DNA of 64,000 bases from Megamonas funiformis. GTDB taxonomy: Bacteria; Bacillota; Negativicutes; Selenomonadales; Selenomonadaceae. Location: positions 1,997,292-2,061,291 of the forward strand of contig NZ_CP048627.1 in the NCBI RefSeq assembly GCF_010669225.1. Reading direction: 5' to 3'. Of the stretch, positions 48,820 through 55,808 are shown piece by piece. The notes beneath the pieces are model-generated. The model did no database searches and was not told the origin of the DNA. It was given only the letters and a program-made list of their open reading frames with translations. Position numbers and translations under genes: made by a program. Position 1 is the first letter of the stretch. Each line of letters starts with the position of its first letter.

Positions 48820-48850
48820 CATAAAAAATAAAAAAAAGCAAATAAAAAAA

Positions 48851-48878
48851 GGAAATTAAATTAAAAAATTTAATTTCC
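48851..48878 (-). terminator. Terminator of the adhesin operon
   Basis: GGAAATTAAATT (48851-48862), AAAA, AATTTAATTTCC (48867-48878) form a perfect 12-bp stem. A seven-T run follows on the minus strand, after the zinc-knuckle gene. Confidence 0.92.
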
Positions 48879-48903
48879 TCTTTTACTTTCTTCTTTACAA
48901 TAT

Positions 48904-49209
48904 TTAATTTTTATTTATTATCTTTTTAGGATGTTTCCAATATAACTTTTCACAACGAGGTGAACAAAAAATAGTTCGCCTATCATGCTTATTCACAACT
49001 GTTACTAATTCATGACATTTTTTACATCTAAATTGTCTTAGTATAACTCCTGTATTTTCTTCATCATTTATATCTTCTACAATCCTATTTTTGCTATAGT
49101 ATGTTTCTTTATGATGTTTTTTTCGACAATAATAGGTACAATACACTTGATCTTTTCTTCTAGCTTCGAAAGATTGATGACAAACTGGGCATATCTTATT
49201 TAAATGCAT
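48904..49209 (-). CDS. Small protein with two zinc knuckles, function unknown
   Basis: The 101-residue protein has two CxxC...CxxxC modules: C7/C10/C24/C28 and C62/C65/C82/C86. Both have basic, aromatic-rich surroundings (YCTYYCRKKHH; FCSPRCEKLYW) like treble-clef FCS/MYM-type fingers, suggesting nucleic-acid or protein binding. No membrane segment or signal peptide is seen, so it is cytoplasmic. Its start abuts the stop of the upstream gene, and it ends the predicted adhesin transcript at a strong terminator. I do not recognise the family. Confidence 0.75.
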   Translation of the reverse strand: MHLNKICPVCHQSFEARRKDQVYCTYYCRKKHHKETYYSKNRIVEDINDEENTGVILRQFRCKKCHELVTVVNKHDRRTIFCSPRCEKLYWKHPKKIINKN

Positions 49210-49704
49210 TTATTTCTCCATCATTTTTAGAAAACGATTTTTATCTTCTAAAGTTTTTAATGCATTTGTATAAATCTTAAAAATTATTTCATCATCAATC
49301 ATTTGTAATTGCATACTAGAACCTAAATCACCACAAACTTTACCTTGTGAATCAATTAAATATCTTTGTGGCATACAATAATATCTTCCATCATTAGTAA
49401 ACATATATAATGTTAATGAAGAAACAGTATCTTTTAAATCTTCACCTTTTCTAAGTTCAGTTAAAAAATCACTTTCTTTGTAGTGTTCTTCAGCAGATAC
49501 TATTAAATAAAAATGTCCATCTTTTTTTACTGTTTCTATAGTATCTGTATCTATATATACAGTACCAATATTTGTTTCTCCAATCATTTTATTTGATTGT
49601 GCTTCTACTGGTTTTGCAGGTTTACTCAAAAAAAATATACCCACACCTATAATAACTACAAAAAAAACTCCTATTATGCCTATATTATCTTTTAGAATGT
49701 CCAT
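49210..49704 (-). CDS. Membrane-anchored extracytoplasmic protein of unknown function
   Basis: The 164-residue product has one N-terminal membrane anchor (IGIIGVFFVVIIGVGIFFL, residues 9-27) and an extracytoplasmic domain of about 130 residues. The domain is alpha/beta in character (GTVYIDTDTIETVKKDGHFYLIVSAEE; YYCMPQRYLIDSQGKVCGDLG) with two cysteines that could form a disulfide. It resembles small surface-housekeeping domains seen beside adhesins, but no family is recognised. ATG 49704 is used after AGGTAG. It lies 14 bp from the preceding gene and directly abuts the zinc-knuckle gene. Confidence 0.75.
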   Translation of the reverse strand: MDILKDNIGIIGVFFVVIIGVGIFFLSKPAKPVEAQSNKMIGETNIGTVYIDTDTIETVKKDGHFYLIVSAEEHYKESDFLTELRKGEDLKDTVSSLTLYMFTNDGRYYCMPQRYLIDSQGKVCGDLGSSMQLQMIDDEIIFKIYTNALKTLEDKNRFLKMMEK

Positions 49705-49718
49705 ATTCACTACCTATA

Positions 49719-50141
49719 TTATTTAGAAGCTTCTTCTACTTGTAATGGAGTAAATACATAATCTGTTAATTTTTTGTCTTTATCAAATGCAAGCATAATA
49801 GCTACAGCTTGTTCTTTATCAAATGCTGCTACATAAGTTACTCTATCGCCTTGGTCAAATCTTTGAAAATTATAGAACTTAACTTCTTTGACATTACCAT
49901 ATTGTTCTTTGATTTGTTTAGATAAATCTTTGTAAGCTTTTTCATTTACATTTGTTTTTAAGGTATCTGAAAAATCTTTACTAACTACATCATATGCAGG
50001 AATTTGATCTTTAGTAAATACTTCCATAAAAGTTTCTGCTACTTTTTGTTCTTTATTTAAATCATTACCATCAGCTGCAAAACATAATCCACTAAAAGCC
50101 ATCATCATAATTAATGTTACTGTAAATATAACTTTTTTCAT
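49719..50141 (-). CDS. Exported DUF3887-like protein
   Basis: The 140-residue protein has a signal peptide (MKKVIFTVTLIMMMAFSGLCFA). Its single domain begins VAETFMEVFTKDQIPAYDVVSKDFSDTLK and ends VTYVAAFDKEQAVAIMLAFDKDKKLTDYVFTP. The NTF2-like DUF3887 pattern is a reasonable match from memory, not a firm one. It should reach the periplasm. AAAGGACG precedes ATG 50141. It follows the adhesin gene by about 98 bp that contain a hairpin, so it is likely expressed with the adhesin. Confidence 0.75.
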   Translation of the reverse strand: MKKVIFTVTLIMMMAFSGLCFAADGNDLNKEQKVAETFMEVFTKDQIPAYDVVSKDFSDTLKTNVNEKAYKDLSKQIKEQYGNVKEVKFYNFQRFDQGDRVTYVAAFDKEQAVAIMLAFDKDKKLTDYVFTPLQVEEASK

Positions 50142-50181
50142 ATTAAACAACGTCCTTTACTATCACTATTTTTTTATAATA

Positions 50182-50210
50182 GATAAGCGACAGAATATCT
50201 GTCGCTTATC
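50182..50210 (-). terminator. Intercistronic hairpin after the adhesin gene
   Basis: GATAAGCGACAG (50182-50193), AATAT, CTGTCGCTTATC (50199-50210) form a perfect 12-bp stem. No T-run follows on either strand, so it probably protects or processes mRNA or terminates only partly. Confidence 0.65.
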
Positions 50211-50239
50211 CTCTAGATTTATAACTTATAATTTAACTA

Positions 50240-53200
50240 TTAAGCTGTTTTTTGAGCTTCTCTTTCTGCTAATAATTTAGCATGTCTTTCAGCCTGAGCT
50301 TTTACTTTTGCATCTTGAGCTAATTTTTTCATTTCTTCAGCTTTTTCAAGACGTCTTGCTTCTTCATCTTTTGCTTTTTCAGCAGCAGATTTACGACCGA
50401 GTTTCCATGTAGCACCGATACCGCCCATTACTTCATCACCAGAAGTGGAAATGCTTGCACTGAGCATGAAGTCTTGATTTGGATAATGGAATACACCAAG
50501 AGCAAGACCTGTTTCGCTCTTATACTGACCTACACCAATAGCGATTTCTGTTGGAGCTTCTGGGTCAAATCCCATAGTACGAAGGTTTGCGATAGCTGCA
50601 GACATAGCACCTACTTTATCAATGCGATCTTCTACATCACTCATACGATTTTCCAAACTACCTACTCTACCATCTAATTGTTCAATCTGACCATCAATTC
50701 TAGAAATTTCATTACGACGAATATCAGCTTCGGCATTTACTGCACCAACAAGATTTGGATTATCTTTATAATTCTGATTGTCTGTAATTTCTTTATCAAG
50801 TTTTGATGTATCTCCAACTTTATTATCAACTGCATCTACTTTATCATTTACTTTATTTACTTCTTCATTTGTTGCTAAGTCGCCGATATTTGTGCCACCA
50901 ATTATAGCATTACCATCTTTATCTGTAGAAATTTGTACTCCATTATATGTTCCACCAGTTACATTACCAGTTGTTCCATCAACTTTAAAGTTATCTCCAA
51001 CAGATAAATCTCCACCAACTGTTACATCACCAGTTGTTGTAATATTACCGCCATTAATTGTTGTAGAACCACTACCATTTGCAAATGTTGTACCATCAGT
51101 AGTTGTAGTAACACTAGTATTTCCTACTTGATCTTTAATTCCTATTGTATTTTTATCATCAATATATCCTACACTACTGCTAGCTGTTGTTGTACCATTG
51201 CTAAAGGAAGAATGAACCCCTGTTGCACCACTAACAAAAGTATTAGTAATACCATTAGCATTATATTTAAGATCTAATGTACCATCTGCACCAAGTGATA
51301 AATCTCCTCCACCTACAACATTACCATTACCATCTGTAATAGCACCATTCAAATGAATATTATCTACATATAAATCTTTTGTAGTGATTGAAGAACCATT
51401 TATTACAGTTTCACCTGTTGTAATAGTTCCACCATTAATAGATGTAAAAGATACATTTTCTCCATTAGCATTTATAAATGTTGCACCATTTTTATCTAAT
51501 ATAAAACTGTTATTTCTAAAACCAAGACTTACACCTGTGTTATCTAAAGTGAAACTAGTTGTTGCTGCATAGCCCAAATCAAAACCATTTGTTCTATCCA
51601 TATTAAAACGGTAATTACCAGCTTTTGATGTTATGCTTCCATATGGATCTACTACAAAATTACCATTAGCTGTAGAAAAACGACCTGTGTTATATATTTT
51701 TGTTTTTCCTTCAATTTGAGTATAATAACCTAATCCATCTTCGTTTTCAGTATTACGATCAATACCTGCTACATCAGTAGCTACTCCTCCTATATCTTTA
51801 CCATTAACTATAAGATTAGTAGTTTTTATTGTGTCACCTTTTATTGTTGTAGAACCATTTCCTGTACTTGAAAAAGTTGTTCCATTAGCATTTGTTGTTA
51901 CAGAATTTGTTACATCATCTTTTGTAAAGCTATCTGTTACACCATTATAAGATACTTGGCTTTGTCCTATAGCACCTGTTGTTGCATTTGTAGATTTAAT
52001 AGTAGTACTACCTGTACCATTTACACTTAAACCACCAGTAGATAAGCTTGCATATTGAGTTTTTACACCATCAACATCTTTGTACAATGTTAATCCATTT
52101 GCATTTAAGCCTACATTTTTACCAGATAAAGCTACACCTGCTTCATTAAGAGTCAATGTTGAAGAAGCTGTGTTACTACCACCTCTTATTGTAGCTGTAC
52201 CAGTATTACCATTTAAGCTTATAGAGGCTTGATTATAAGATGTTGCTTTTCCATCTTCACCATAAATATAGTTTCCATAAGAAGTAATAGATGATGTACC
52301 ACCATTTACACTAACAGATGTTTTGTCTGTAACATTATTATTAGTATCATATTTTGTAGAGCTAATACCTACTCCAGATGTATTCTGATTAATCGCTGTA
52401 TCTATTTTTCCTGTAGTAGTTTTTAAAGATGTTGTATTAGAAATGCCACCTGTTCCTACATTTGAATATGCTACTCTAGCTCCATCAGTACCATACACTG
52501 CATCTGTTACACCAGTAGCACCTACTGTAGATGTTGTTTTATTTCCAGCTGTATTTTTAGCTGTAATATTTAAGCTTGTACCAGTAACAGCACCTGTAGT
52601 ACTAATACCACCAGTAGTATTACCATCTTCATCTTTTAATGTTAATCCACTAGTATTTAATGTTGCTGTTTTACCATTAGCATCTTTTAATGTAAATGTA
52701 CTACCAGATAATGTTGCATTGTTACCAGCAATTGATACATTGTTATTACTATCAACAGCAAATCCATAGTTACCTACTTTCAAGCTTGCACTATTTCCAG
52801 CTAAAGTTAAAGTTGATGTACCAACTGTTCCATTTTCATCTTTTTTAGTAGCACTTGCAGATATACCTCTTTTATCTTGATATATACTAGTACTCATTGT
52901 ATTATTAGTAGATCCATCTATACTTAAATTTGTTGTTGTATTAACAATGCCATTTGTTGTTACACTTGAAGAAGCTACTTGATTGCCTTTTACATTGTAT
53001 ACTGTATCTGTTACACCTGTAGCACTTACTGTAGATGTTGTTTTATTCTTATTACCAGAAATCGCATCTGTTGTATTATTACCTTGTACAGTTGTTGTTA
53101 CACTTGTAGGTCCTACTACTGTACCAGATGTATATGTTTTATTACCAGCTAATGTTGTATCAATTTTATTAGTAATTCCAGCATATGATGTAGTTGTAGT

Positions 53201-54709
53201 AGCTGCTATATCCTTTTTCATTGTTGATGTTCCAATATTTACCCAACTAGAATTCTTATCTGTAACATTCATTCCATCATTAGCTATAAGATTTCCAGTA
53301 TTACTAATACCACCAACTTTAATACCATCAGCATTATTAATGCTTAATCCACTAGCACCTAAGCTTGCTAAAGTTTTTCCATTTGTTGCATCTTTTAATG
53401 TAAATGTACTACCAGATAATGTTGCATTATTACCAGATAATGTTACATTTCCTAAAGTATTATCTACTTTCACATAAGCAGTACCTGATGTTAATGTTGC
53501 ACTATCACCTTTTATCGATAATGAAGATGATGTTTTAGTATTTTCTTCATCATATTTATTAGCTGTTAATGTTATACCAGCAGTATTTACTTGTGATTGT
53601 GCTAGTGTTTGATTAGATGCATTTGTTACTGTATCTGTTACACCAGTAGCACCTACTGTAGATGTTGTTGTATTTGTTCCATTTGTTACTGTATCTGTTA
53701 CACCATTGTAAGATACTTGGCTTTGTCCCATAGCACCTGTTGTTGCATTTGTAGATTTAATACTAGAAGTTCCTGTTCCATTTACAGTTAATCCTGTAGA
53801 TGTTAAGCTTGCATTTTTACCGCTAAATAATACATTGTTATTACTATCAACAGTAAATCCATAGTTACCTACTTTTAAACTTGCATTATCTCCACCTAAA
53901 GTTAAAGTAGATGTTGTTGTAGTTGATGTTTGATTATCAGTAACTATTTTTTTAGCTGTTAATGATACTTTACCATTTTCAATACCATTTGCAGCAGTAT
54001 TTTTAAATACATTTATAGATGACAATTCTGTTCCACTGTCAGTGTATATTGTATCTTTTATAGAATTAGTTGTTACATTAGATGTAGCTCTAGTAAAACC
54101 ACCCTGTTTTATAGTATCTGCTACTCCACTAGTTGTTACTTTTGATTCAACATAATTGCCCTCTGGTTTAATAGGATCAGATACTGCTTTTACAGTTAAT
54201 CCTGTACCAGTAATAGCCCCTGCCTTAGTAATAGTAGCTGTTGCTTTCGTATTAATACCATCATAAATATTCAACCCATTATTATTTAAACTTGCTAATG
54301 TAGTACCAGTACCATTTTTTATAGTTAATCCTGTACCAGTAATAGCTCCTGTATTACTAATACTACCCACTACAATTCCCTTAGTATTTTTAACAGACAA
54401 ACCACTATTATTCACAGCAAGATTACTACTATTTAAAGTAAATGTACCATAAGTAGTTCCATCTGTTGTTGTTTGTTTACCAACATTAATAGCTAAACTT
54501 TTATTACCTAAAGTAATTGTAGATTGTTGACTACCTTGTGCTCCAGCTGTAGCTGTGATAGTACTACCATTAGCTGTTACAGATGAATTTTTATCTGTAC
54601 TTTCTATTTTAGTAGGTGTATCTGCTGCTGATACCACTGTATAACTTCCAAAAATGGAAGAAGCACACATTACTGCTGCTAAAATCTGGGCTTTTTTATT
54701 ACTTGCCAT
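50240..54709 (-). CDS. Trimeric autotransporter adhesin (YadA-like)
   Basis: A 1489-residue surface adhesin. Residues 1-28 are a signal peptide ending SYTVVSAAD. The passenger (about 30-1270) is Thr/Ser/Asn/Gly-rich with many diverged repeats (TVSATGVTDTV, LKDANGKT, GLTLKDEDG, SIKSTNATTGA). About 1270-1365 is a coiled-coil stalk (EVNKVNDKVDAVDNKVG...RIDGQIEQLDGRVGSLENRM). About 1366-1439 is the YadA-type anchor (AIGVGQYKSETGLALGVFHYP...GGIGATWKLG), four strands per chain of a 12-stranded trimer barrel. A charged 50-residue tail (1440-1489) follows, which YadA proteins usually lack. It implies an outer membrane. The gene starts 64 bp after the small Cro-like gene with GGGAGGA before the ATG and no terminator between. 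Confidence 0.95.
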   Translation of the reverse strand: MASNKKAQILAAVMCASSIFGSYTVVSAADTPTKIESTDKNSSVTANGSTITATAGAQGSQQSTITLGNKSLAINVGKQTTTDGTTYGTFTLNSSNLAVNNSGLSVKNTKGIVVGSISNTGAITGTGLTIKNGTGTTLASLNNNGLNIYDGINTKATATITKAGAITGTGLTVKAVSDPIKPEGNYVESKVTTSGVADTIKQGGFTRATSNVTTNSIKDTIYTDSGTELSSINVFKNTAANGIENGKVSLTAKKIVTDNQTSTTTTSTLTLGGDNASLKVGNYGFTVDSNNNVLFSGKNASLTSTGLTVNGTGTSSIKSTNATTGAMGQSQVSYNGVTDTVTNGTNTTTSTVGATGVTDTVTNASNQTLAQSQVNTAGITLTANKYDEENTKTSSSLSIKGDSATLTSGTAYVKVDNTLGNVTLSGNNATLSGSTFTLKDATNGKTLASLGASGLSINNADGIKVGGISNTGNLIANDGMNVTDKNSSWVNIGTSTMKKDIAATTTTSYAGITNKIDTTLAGNKTYTSGTVVGPTSVTTTVQGNNTTDAISGNKNKTTSTVSATGVTDTVYNVKGNQVASSSVTTNGIVNTTTNLSIDGSTNNTMSTSIYQDKRGISASATKKDENGTVGTSTLTLAGNSASLKVGNYGFAVDSNNNVSIAGNNATLSGSTFTLKDANGKTATLNTSGLTLKDEDGNTTGGISTTGAVTGTSLNITAKNTAGNKTTSTVGATGVTDAVYGTDGARVAYSNVGTGGISNTTSLKTTTGKIDTAINQNTSGVGISSTKYDTNNNVTDKTSVSVNGGTSSITSYGNYIYGEDGKATSYNQASISLNGNTGTATIRGGSNTASSTLTLNEAGVALSGKNVGLNANGLTLYKDVDGVKTQYASLSTGGLSVNGTGSTTIKSTNATTGAIGQSQVSYNGVTDSFTKDDVTNSVTTNANGTTFSSTGNGSTTIKGDTIKTTNLIVNGKDIGGVATDVAGIDRNTENEDGLGYYTQIEGKTKIYNTGRFSTANGNFVVDPYGSITSKAGNYRFNMDRTNGFDLGYAATTSFTLDNTGVSLGFRNNSFILDKNGATFINANGENVSFTSINGGTITTGETVINGSSITTKDLYVDNIHLNGAITDGNGNVVGGGDLSLGADGTLDLKYNANGITNTFVSGATGVHSSFSNGTTTASSSVGYIDDKNTIGIKDQVGNTSVTTTTDGTTFANGSGSTTINGGNITTTGDVTVGGDLSVGDNFKVDGTTGNVTGGTYNGVQISTDKDGNAIIGGTNIGDLATNEEVNKVNDKVDAVDNKVGDTSKLDKEITDNQNYKDNPNLVGAVNAEADIRRNEISRIDGQIEQLDGRVGSLENRMSDVEDRIDKVGAMSAAIANLRTMGFDPEAPTEIAIGVGQYKSETGLALGVFHYPNQDFMLSASISTSGDEVMGGIGATWKLGRKSAAEKAKDEEARRLEKAEEMKKLAQDAKVKAQAERHAKLLAEREAQKTA
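51932..52024. repeat. Long intragenic repeat in the adhesin gene, copy 1
   Basis: This stretch of about 93 bp is almost identical to 53693-53786, encoding the SIKSTNATTGA...SQVSYNGVTD unit in both. Further pairs are 52687-52732 with 53393-53438, and 52734-52820 with 53829-53915. Confidence 0.75.
53693..53786. repeat. Long intragenic repeat in the adhesin gene, copy 2
   Basis: Second copy of the unit at 51932-52024, about 1.7 kb apart in direct orientation. Recombination between them would delete about 590 residues in frame. Confidence 0.75.
54645..54660. promoter_or_regulatory. Possible fourth operator inside the adhesin start region
   Basis: CTTCCAAAAATGGAAG matches the TTCCA-N4-TGGAA palindrome of the upstream control region and lies at codons 17-22 of the adhesin. 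Coincidence is possible, since the site also encodes SSIFGS. Confidence 0.35.
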
Positions 54710-54773
54710 AAAAATATCCTCCCTCGGTTTAGTAATTATTGCTTCAAAAAATAATAAAATAACTACTATTCAT

Positions 54774-55052
54774 TTATATCCACCATTTAGACGGCTTTGA
54801 TTTCTGTATAATATCGTCATGATATGTAGCTTCATTATCTTGTTCTTCTGTAAATAGATATTTTATATCCATTTCATTATTAAAAATCTCACTATTTATC
54901 TTTATTACTTCTTGGAATGTAAATTCCCCAACATGTTTTAGCTTATTTTCGATAATTTCTTCTGAACAATTTAGCAAATTAGCTAGTATATGTGCTATTT
55001 CTTCTGTTTTATAGCCTTTTTTTACAATCTCATTAACTAAATTATTATACAT
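54774..55052 (-). CDS. Small Cro-like putative regulator
   Basis: This 92-residue protein begins MYNNLVNEIVKKGYKTEEIAHIL. It has the helix pattern of small phage helix-turn-helix proteins: helices at about 2-10, 15-23, 27-36 and 44-54 (FTFQEVIKINSEIF), with a short acidic tail. The match is by pattern only, since key residues are diverged. ATG 55052 follows GGTGGT and is preferred over an upstream extension to 55130 that would run through the operator. It is the first gene of the adhesin transcript and divergent from the XRE repressor gene. Confidence 0.65.
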   Translation of the reverse strand: MYNNLVNEIVKKGYKTEEIAHILANLLNCSEEIIENKLKHVGEFTFQEVIKINSEIFNNEMDIKYLFTEEQDNEATYHDDIIQKSKPSKWWI

Positions 55053-55064
55053 AATACCACCACC

Positions 55065-55080
55065 TTTCCAAATATGGAAA
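55065..55080. promoter_or_regulatory. Operator O1 (TTTCCA-AATA-TGGAAA)
   Basis: Perfect 6+6 palindrome with a 4-bp spacer, downstream of the leftward promoter and next to the ribosome site of the Cro-like gene. Confidence 0.75.
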
Positions 55081-55092
55081 TATTTTAGTTTT

Positions 55093-55121
55093 ATTTTACT
55101 TCCATTTATGGAAAAAGTCAA
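55093..55121 (-). promoter_or_regulatory. Leftward promoter of the Cro-like/adhesin operon
   Basis: TTGACT (55116-55121) and TAAAAT (55093-55098) on the minus strand are 17 bp apart. The spacer is filled by operator O2. Confidence 0.78.
55100..55113. promoter_or_regulatory. Operator O2 (TTCCA-TTTA-TGGAA)
   Basis: Perfect 5+5 palindrome with a 4-bp spacer, exactly between the -35 and -10 boxes of the leftward promoter; binding there should block RNA polymerase. Confidence 0.78.
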
Positions 55122-55163
55122 ATACCTCAAAGGAAATATTAAAATTTTTAGAAATCTGTCAAC

Positions 55164-55192
55164 TTTACACTAAAATTTATAAATGATATACT
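55164..55192 (+). promoter_or_regulatory. Rightward promoter of the XRE repressor gene
   Basis: TTTACA (55164-55169) and TATACT (55187-55192) are 17 bp apart, with a predicted start near 55199. Confidence 0.78.
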
Positions 55193-55202
55193 ATTTCAAT
55201 AA

Positions 55203-55213
55203 TCCAAAATGGA
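55203..55213. promoter_or_regulatory. Operator O3 (TCCA-AAA-TGGA)
   Basis: Related palindrome with a 3-bp spacer, just past the rightward start site and overlapping the GGAGG ribosome site, suited to autoregulation of the repressor. Confidence 0.6.
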
Positions 55214-55226
55214 GGAATAATATATT

Positions 55227-55745
55227 ATGGAATCCTTTAAACCTATATTGGAAAAAATAAAAAAAATAAAACAAGAAAAAGGTTATACTAATGAAGTTTT
55301 AGCTCAAAAATCAGGTATTCCCCTCAGTACTTTGAATAAGATTTTATCTTCTGTTATCAAAGATCCCAAAATTGGTACTCTTATAGCTATCACAGATGCT
55401 TTAGATGTTGATATAAATTCATTGATTTATGATAATCTAAATATAAAAGATAAACCCAATCCAAAAGCAACTGATAACTTAGAAAAACTAGCTAATGAAT
55501 ATAATCTAAATATAGATGATATATCTTTTATTACAAAATATATCAATTTACCAGCTAAAGATCGTCAACATTTTCTTTCTTTATTAAGATTATTGACTTC
55601 AAAAAATATTGACAATTCTCCCGTTTTAACAAAACCAGATCACAAATTAACTATAGAAGAAAAACGTAAAATTGTTGAATATGAATTAGATCTAGAAGAA
55701 AAAAACCAAACATTATTAGCTTCCATTTCTTCAAATGGTTCATAA
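55227..55745 (+). CDS. XRE-family helix-turn-helix repressor (CI-like)
   Basis: The 172-residue protein has an N-terminal XRE helix-turn-helix (residues 8-62: TNEVLAQKSGIPLSTLNKIL...IGTLIAITDALDVDINSL). A predicted helical C-terminal segment (about 80-172) contains LPAKDRQHFLSLLRLL and a charged end. There is no LexA/CI peptidase domain, so induction by RecA self-cleavage is not expected. GGAGG precedes the ATG and overlaps operator O3. It faces away from the Cro-like gene across shared operators, and by that layout likely controls both. No phage structural or integrase genes are seen nearby. Confidence 0.85.
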   Translation: MESFKPILEKIKKIKQEKGYTNEVLAQKSGIPLSTLNKILSSVIKDPKIGTLIAITDALDVDINSLIYDNLNIKDKPNPKATDNLEKLANEYNLNIDDISFITKYINLPAKDRQHFLSLLRLLTSKNIDNSPVLTKPDHKLTIEEKRKIVEYELDLEEKNQTLLASISSNGS

Positions 55746-55756
55746 AAATCCATTAA

Positions 55757-55796
55757 AAAAAGGCAGTTTATGAAATTAATCATAAACTGCCTTTTC
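55757..55796. terminator. Bidirectional terminator XRE / 55.8 kb exported gene
   Basis: AAAAGGCAGTTTATG (55757-55771) pairs with CATAAACTGCCTTTT (55781-55795), perfect over 15 bp with T-runs on both strands. Confidence 0.9.
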
Positions 55797-55808
55797 TACT
55801 ATTATTTT

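Follow-up and report, generated by a model that had tools for sequence, protein, structure and literature searches.

Genes and features of the adhesin locus

The window, i.e., the whole 64,000-nt stretch of DNA that was analysed, carries a divergently oriented pair of regulator genes and, downstream of the smaller of the two and on the same strand, four genes of which the first encodes a trimeric autotransporter adhesin. The features of the locus are given below with their positions in the window; G001 denotes a second species of the genus and G226 a genome from another family.

48835-48890, - strand: operon-end terminator, a hairpin followed by a U-run (z -4.95)
48904-49209, - strand: zinc-knuckle protein, 101 aa, final gene of the operon (phrog_31911, 1.5e-14; 65% identity with G001)
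49210-49710, - strand: 166-aa protein, membrane-anchored or exported, with a homologue in the same slot of G001 and G226
49719-50150, - strand: exported DUF3887 protein, 143 aa (PF13026, 4.7e-10)
50151-50239, - strand: hairpin between the adhesin and DUF3887 genes (z -4.6), without a U-run
50240-54709, - strand: trimeric autotransporter adhesin, 1489 aa (YadA_anchor, PF03895, 2.7e-10, at residues 1382-1436)
54774-55052, - strand: small Cro/MOR-like partner, 92 aa (HTH fold over residues 1-70 and a disordered tail with an SKWWI end)
55053-55226: intergenic spacer of the regulator pair, 174 bp
55227-55745, + strand: XRE/CI-type repressor, 172 aa (HTH_3, 1.4e-11; 80% identity with the G001 homologue)
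55746-55800, + strand: terminator after the XRE gene (z -8.0)

The first-pass annotation had described a divergent XRE/small-gene pair across 174 bp; this is correct and the gene coordinates were confirmed, while a longer, TTG-started version of the small gene was rejected because its start would fall upstream of the promoter. With a divergent XRE repressor and a small HTH partner on one control region, the pair has the arrangement of a phage CI/Cro-type unit. The XRE protein is built from an HTH domain (residues ~1-70), a variable linker and a helical C-terminal part. A family search (E-values up to 1) revealed no S24/peptidase domain in this protein, and it therefore falls outside the LexA/lambda-CI-like class of SOS-cleavable repressors, which that domain defines. 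The small protein gave no significant HTH match in Pfam, PHROG or NCBIfam; its earlier label, 'Cro-like', is in this respect not backed by family databases, but it does have a prophage homologue and a matching fold model (see below).

The adhesin has a YadA-like C-terminal anchor, a signal peptide and a long repetitive passenger, as expected for a trimeric autotransporter, and is the only protein of this class in its genome. All four genes downstream of the small gene are on the - strand as had been claimed, no intrinsic terminator was found between the small gene and the adhesin gene, and a strong terminator (z -4.95) indeed closes the operon; the strong hairpin between the adhesin and DUF3887 genes had, however, been overlooked. 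In G001 a hairpin of unrelated sequence, also without a U-run, occupies the same gap (L022 6111-6190; z -4.9), and these hairpins could possibly act as mRNA stabilisers or attenuators. For the 166-aa protein the family search gave no match. The absence of phage genes near the locus also held up: the flanks consist of transport, metabolic, tRNA and rRNA genes.

Two of the downstream products were considered as adhesin-specific components and rejected. Most copies of DUF3887 are not adjacent to an adhesin gene, and a paralogue of the zinc-knuckle protein elsewhere in the genome (L063 1501-1785) sits after a gene for a pilus-type (PilT-like) ATPase.

Promoters and candidate operators

The control elements are, with no strand assigned to the palindromes:

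54646-54659: candidate operator 3, TTCCAAAAATGGAA, within the signal-peptide codons of the adhesin gene and 420 bp from operator 2
55066-55079: candidate operator 2, TTCCAAATATGGAA, just past the leftward start and 34 bp from operator 1
55093-55121, - strand: leftward (adhesin operon) promoter, TTGACT-17-TAAAAT, inside a 33-nt stretch identical in G001
55100-55113: candidate operator 1, TTCCATTTATGGAA, between the -35 and -10 elements of the leftward promoter; exact in G001
55164-55192, + strand: rightward (XRE) promoter, TTTACA-17-TATACT, with TGN ahead of the -10 element, in a block conserved at 42 of 46 positions

Both promoters, TTGACT-17-TAAAAT and TTTACA-17-TATACT, are present as originally written. 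Promoter-like matches are no commoner in this AT-rich stretch than in shuffled sequences (42 observed vs 50 expected), and the support for the two promoters thus comes from their conservation. The window contains three copies of the palindrome TTCCA-N4-TGGAA (0.05 expected) and the whole genome (2.57 Mb) only six, three of which lie within 470 bp at the adhesin locus; by simple arithmetic, the remaining three genomic sites give a chance expectation of ~0.0006 in 470 bp. An earlier proposal of three palindromes of one type needs revision. Those at 55066-55079 and 55100-55113 stand, whereas TCCA-N3-TGGA at the rightward start is outside the TTCCA-N4-TGGAA class, coincides in part with the ribosome-binding site and has no counterpart in G001, and the actual third site (54646-54659) had been missed. 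The 420 bp that separate operator 3 from operator 2, the leader site, correspond to 40 x 10.5, and a role of operator 3 as a looping operator is possible.

Comparison of the spacer with that of G001 identified no conserved operator over the XRE promoter. The conserved sites are found on the leftward promoter only, and in this the locus departs from the phage CI/Cro type, where palindromic operators are shared by both divergent promoters.

Conservation, phage ancestry and related systems

The within-genus comparison covers two species, the source genome and G001. G001 has all six genes with order and strand unchanged, at another chromosomal location and with different flanks (ilv genes and a permease gene in G001 vs permease/GntR genes and tRNA/rRNA genes in the source genome), which indicates that the block stayed together through rearrangement. 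Within the spacer, 32 of 34 positions are identical in the leftward promoter block and 42 of 46 in the rightward block, with 16 of 38 in the stretch in between. The longest identical run (33 nt) contains both the leftward promoter and operator 1; when the non-coding columns were permuted, 25 of 20,000 trials reached a run of this length. In the XRE gene, 21 of 43 fourfold sites (49%) are identical, suggesting that neutral positions are near saturation. In G001 operator 1 is exact, operator 2 has one mismatch and a spacing of 31 bp, and operator 3 was not found. An identical operator-type site at C1:1831316 of G001 lies inside a metabolic gene and was taken as a chance occurrence.

The two regulators evolve at different rates. 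The XRE protein is 80% identical to its G001 counterpart (68 of the first 70 residues), and the small protein, with 55% identity, evolves faster. Its predicted recognition helix changes from acidic in the source genome (SEEIIENKL) to basic in G001 (SKKIIKNKL), with both the fold core and the SKWWI terminus preserved.

G001 has a second adhesin region (L065 3147-15145), the last 4.3 kb of which is 94% identical to the first G001 locus and comprises the 3' part of the adhesin gene along with genes for DUF3887 and the 166-aa protein. It has the opposite chromosomal orientation and carries neither the regulator pair nor the operators, and since the start and body of its adhesin are in two frames, the gene may be frameshifted or switched off.

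The gene order had been predicted to recur in other Negativicutes. This is true within the genus (G001), but other families combine the adhesin, DUF3887 and 166-aa genes with other regulators, and this trio is probably older than the place of the regulator pair beside it. In G226 the trio is followed by a different HTH-type gene (L102 5859-7163), and the same HTH-type gene accompanies a second adhesin gene of that genome (L142 1-1997), together with a 166-aa gene; in G077 the DUF3887 and 166-aa genes are followed by an XRE gene (L141 5637-6888). In these three loci, of which L102 and L142 include the adhesin, the HTH-type gene occupies the slot that the zinc-knuckle gene has in the source genome. 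In G236 the gene for a 2535-aa adhesin has an XRE gene 18 bp ahead of it and DUF3887 behind it, and the three share a strand (L117 1631-10059). Hence, in this handful of loci, several lineages seem to put a DNA-binding protein of their own on the adhesin operon, which in the present genus is the phage pair. Divergent genes resembling those of small sigma-factor-type proteins precede the adhesin loci of G226 (L102 1075-1932) and G236 (L117 10626-11240), and in two species of another genus an XRE and MerR-like gene pair is located upstream of an adhesin (G010, L070 5388-6660; G038, L073 7052-8326). A general rule that XRE genes adjoin trimeric autotransporter genes was rejected on the basis of ~60 regions, where some cases occur in other genera at a level judged not clearly above the XRE frequency.

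Among 189 family genomes the closest relative of the XRE protein outside the genus is a repressor in G044, whose gene adjoins a serine integrase gene and phage replication genes. The two match over their full length, including the C-terminal EKR-I--ELD-EEK (hhalign 96.6%). For the small protein, the homologue is a prophage Cro-like protein that G124 and G128 both carry (blastp 2e-9, hhalign 96.5%), and in G128 its gene adjoins a divergent XRE gene. Because both proteins have homologues among prophage immunity proteins, as a phage CI/Cro-type origin would predict, we infer that a prophage immunity unit of related bacteria gave rise to the pair. Scans of genome and viral contigs with the two proteins gave no hits, nor did scans of the viral contigs with the operator DNA, and tblastn against phage records yielded no convincing match. 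The AF2 model of the small protein shows a five-helix Cro/CI fold with pLDDT ~90 over residues 1-70, and its PDB neighbours include TP901-1 MOR, SinR and controller proteins of R-M systems, with scores as for a common fold. The structure model of the XRE protein was poor and below use for a fold search.

The CI/MOR switch of the Lactococcus phage TP901-1 resembles the locus in having a divergent, protease-less repressor of ~180 aa, a small HTH-fold partner and a spacer of ~170 bp. The TP901-1 operators include one at the lytic promoter and another, distal, within mor (PMC7250872), and MOR, in spite of its HTH fold, hardly binds DNA alone but blocks CI through an aromatic pocket (Tyr3, Tyr5, Trp43 and Phe67; PMC11149083). 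The operator layout, with sites on the lytic-side promoter and a distal site downstream, is found here as well (sites starting at 55100, 55066 and 54646), the distal site in the source genome only. The systems differ in that an adhesin operon replaces the lytic genes and that no site here resembles the central OR operator. Moreover, the small protein is not in DUF739 (which matches MOR itself at 1.6e-42), with no blastp match to MOR and an hhalign value of 2.9%, and the XRE protein compared with TP901-1 CI gives an hhalign value of 0.2%. These values place neither protein in the TP901-1 families, and on present analysis TP901-1 would serve as a comparison of working principle only. Of the small-protein positions aligned to the MOR contacts with CI, those of Tyr5, Trp43 and Phe67 stay aromatic (Y2, F44 and F67) and Tyr3 has no counterpart; the same three residues occur in the prophage Cro-like protein, so that they are consistent with a likeness to MOR without being specific to it.

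Phage immunity regulators retained in a chromosome and controlling non-phage cargo are also seen in the PaaR2/YdaS region of the cryptic prophage CP-933P of E. coli O157:H7, where bistability has been demonstrated (PMC8630535). That pair, however, is still in a prophage remnant and has a toxin-antitoxin operon as cargo instead of an adhesin. SinR/SlrR of Bacillus subtilis likewise involves an XRE repressor of surface and biofilm genes, and among PDB sequences SinR matches the XRE HTH domain best (2e-5), but the partner (SinI), the operator and the targets are different, and the SlrR NCBIfam match is far below its cut-off (25.8 vs 250 bits), placing the XRE protein outside that family. A dedicated repressor of a trimeric autotransporter is NadR of Neisseria meningitidis, which acts on nadA through several operators near the gene; it differs from the present pair in belonging to the MarR family, in not being phage-derived and in working without a partner protein.

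Models for control of the adhesin operon

We consider it probable that the pair is a former-prophage immunity unit kept by the host, in which the adhesin operon is kept down by the XRE protein and the small protein acts against this repressor. What is read from the sequence itself is the gene content, the gene order with its preservation in one relative, the sites and how rare they are, the conservation of the promoter and the descent from phage; from these we infer DNA binding by the XRE protein, repression, antagonism, looping and any bistability. Given the operator positions on the leftward promoter, the most direct reading is that the XRE protein represses the adhesin promoter. Specifically, the XRE protein, expressed from its own promoter, would bind the leftward promoter at its two TTCCA-N4-TGGAA sites and would also occupy the third site, 420 bp off inside the adhesin gene, possibly via looping, and binding would shut off the small gene together with the adhesin, DUF3887, 166-aa and zinc-knuckle genes. 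Should repression fail, the small protein would be made first and would counteract the XRE protein, most likely by binding to it rather than to its DNA, and the on state would be favoured. We favour such an anti-repressor over a true Cro because no operator is found on the XRE promoter and because the recognition-helix charge differs between the species while the XRE HTH region is identical at 68 of 70 residues.

A stronger form of this explanation, with which it overlaps, is a true toggle of the lambda/TP901-1 type, where the small protein represses the XRE promoter and adhesin states are inherited. The divergent cI/cro arrangement and the phage ancestry point in this direction, as do the precedents of TP901-1 (PMC7250872) and the cryptic E. 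coli prophage (PMC8630535), and the conserved TGTCAAC-TTTACA block at the XRE promoter could hold a second type of site; the XRE promoter nevertheless lacks a shared operator and the charge of the recognition helix is reversed between the two species, and we regard the toggle as possible but doubtful. Simple repression combined with an anti-repressor fits no worse than a toggle. That all of the following apply together, i.e., an adhesin on/off state inherited through a domesticated lysogeny switch, an HTH protein turned anti-repressor and a distal intragenic operator enabling looping, appears unlikely.

At the other end, the XRE protein might be a plain one-way repressor released by a signal, with the small protein vestigial and expression graded instead of bistable. 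The faster evolution of the small protein (55% vs 80% identity), the lack of conservation at its predicted DNA-contact positions and the restriction of conserved operators to the leftward promoter would agree with this, but both species retain an intact small gene at the head of the operon, and the fold core and SKWWI end of its product are conserved; we consider this explanation unlikely. Even less can be said for an immunity pair left by chance upstream of adhesin genes that it does not regulate: the phage origin, and the trio of G226 that exists without the pair, are compatible with it, yet the pair and the four genes remained together as the flanks changed, no terminator separates the pair from the adhesin and one operator is within the adhesin gene, and we consider it very improbable. 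Release of the XRE protein by a host protease (as in ICE/ImmA-like systems) was also considered and rejected: two M78 proteins were above the cut-off in the source genome and none in G001, and this kind of release is thus not a feature common to the two species.

The locus is well explained as a domesticated phage switch, and phage immunity control of non-phage cargo is already known in kind from E. coli. In the open-licence literature that we searched, we found neither a regulator of trimeric autotransporters in Negativicutes nor a description of a phage-type pair controlling an adhesin operon; a Veillonella study states that the circuits controlling trimeric autotransporters are still to be discovered (PMC7549365). 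The locus provides a compact and testable adhesin regulator with defined candidate operators. Bistable adhesin expression is possible judging from the DNA, and if it occurs it would account for the division of a commensal population into cells that stick and cells that do not, and would provide a clear example of how a phage decision circuit can be put to new use in controlling a surface trait.

Finally, the SKWWI end of the small protein (54774-54791 in the window; L022 13689-13706 in G001) is kept despite a diverged preceding tail, and possibly represents a short binding motif or a degradation signal.
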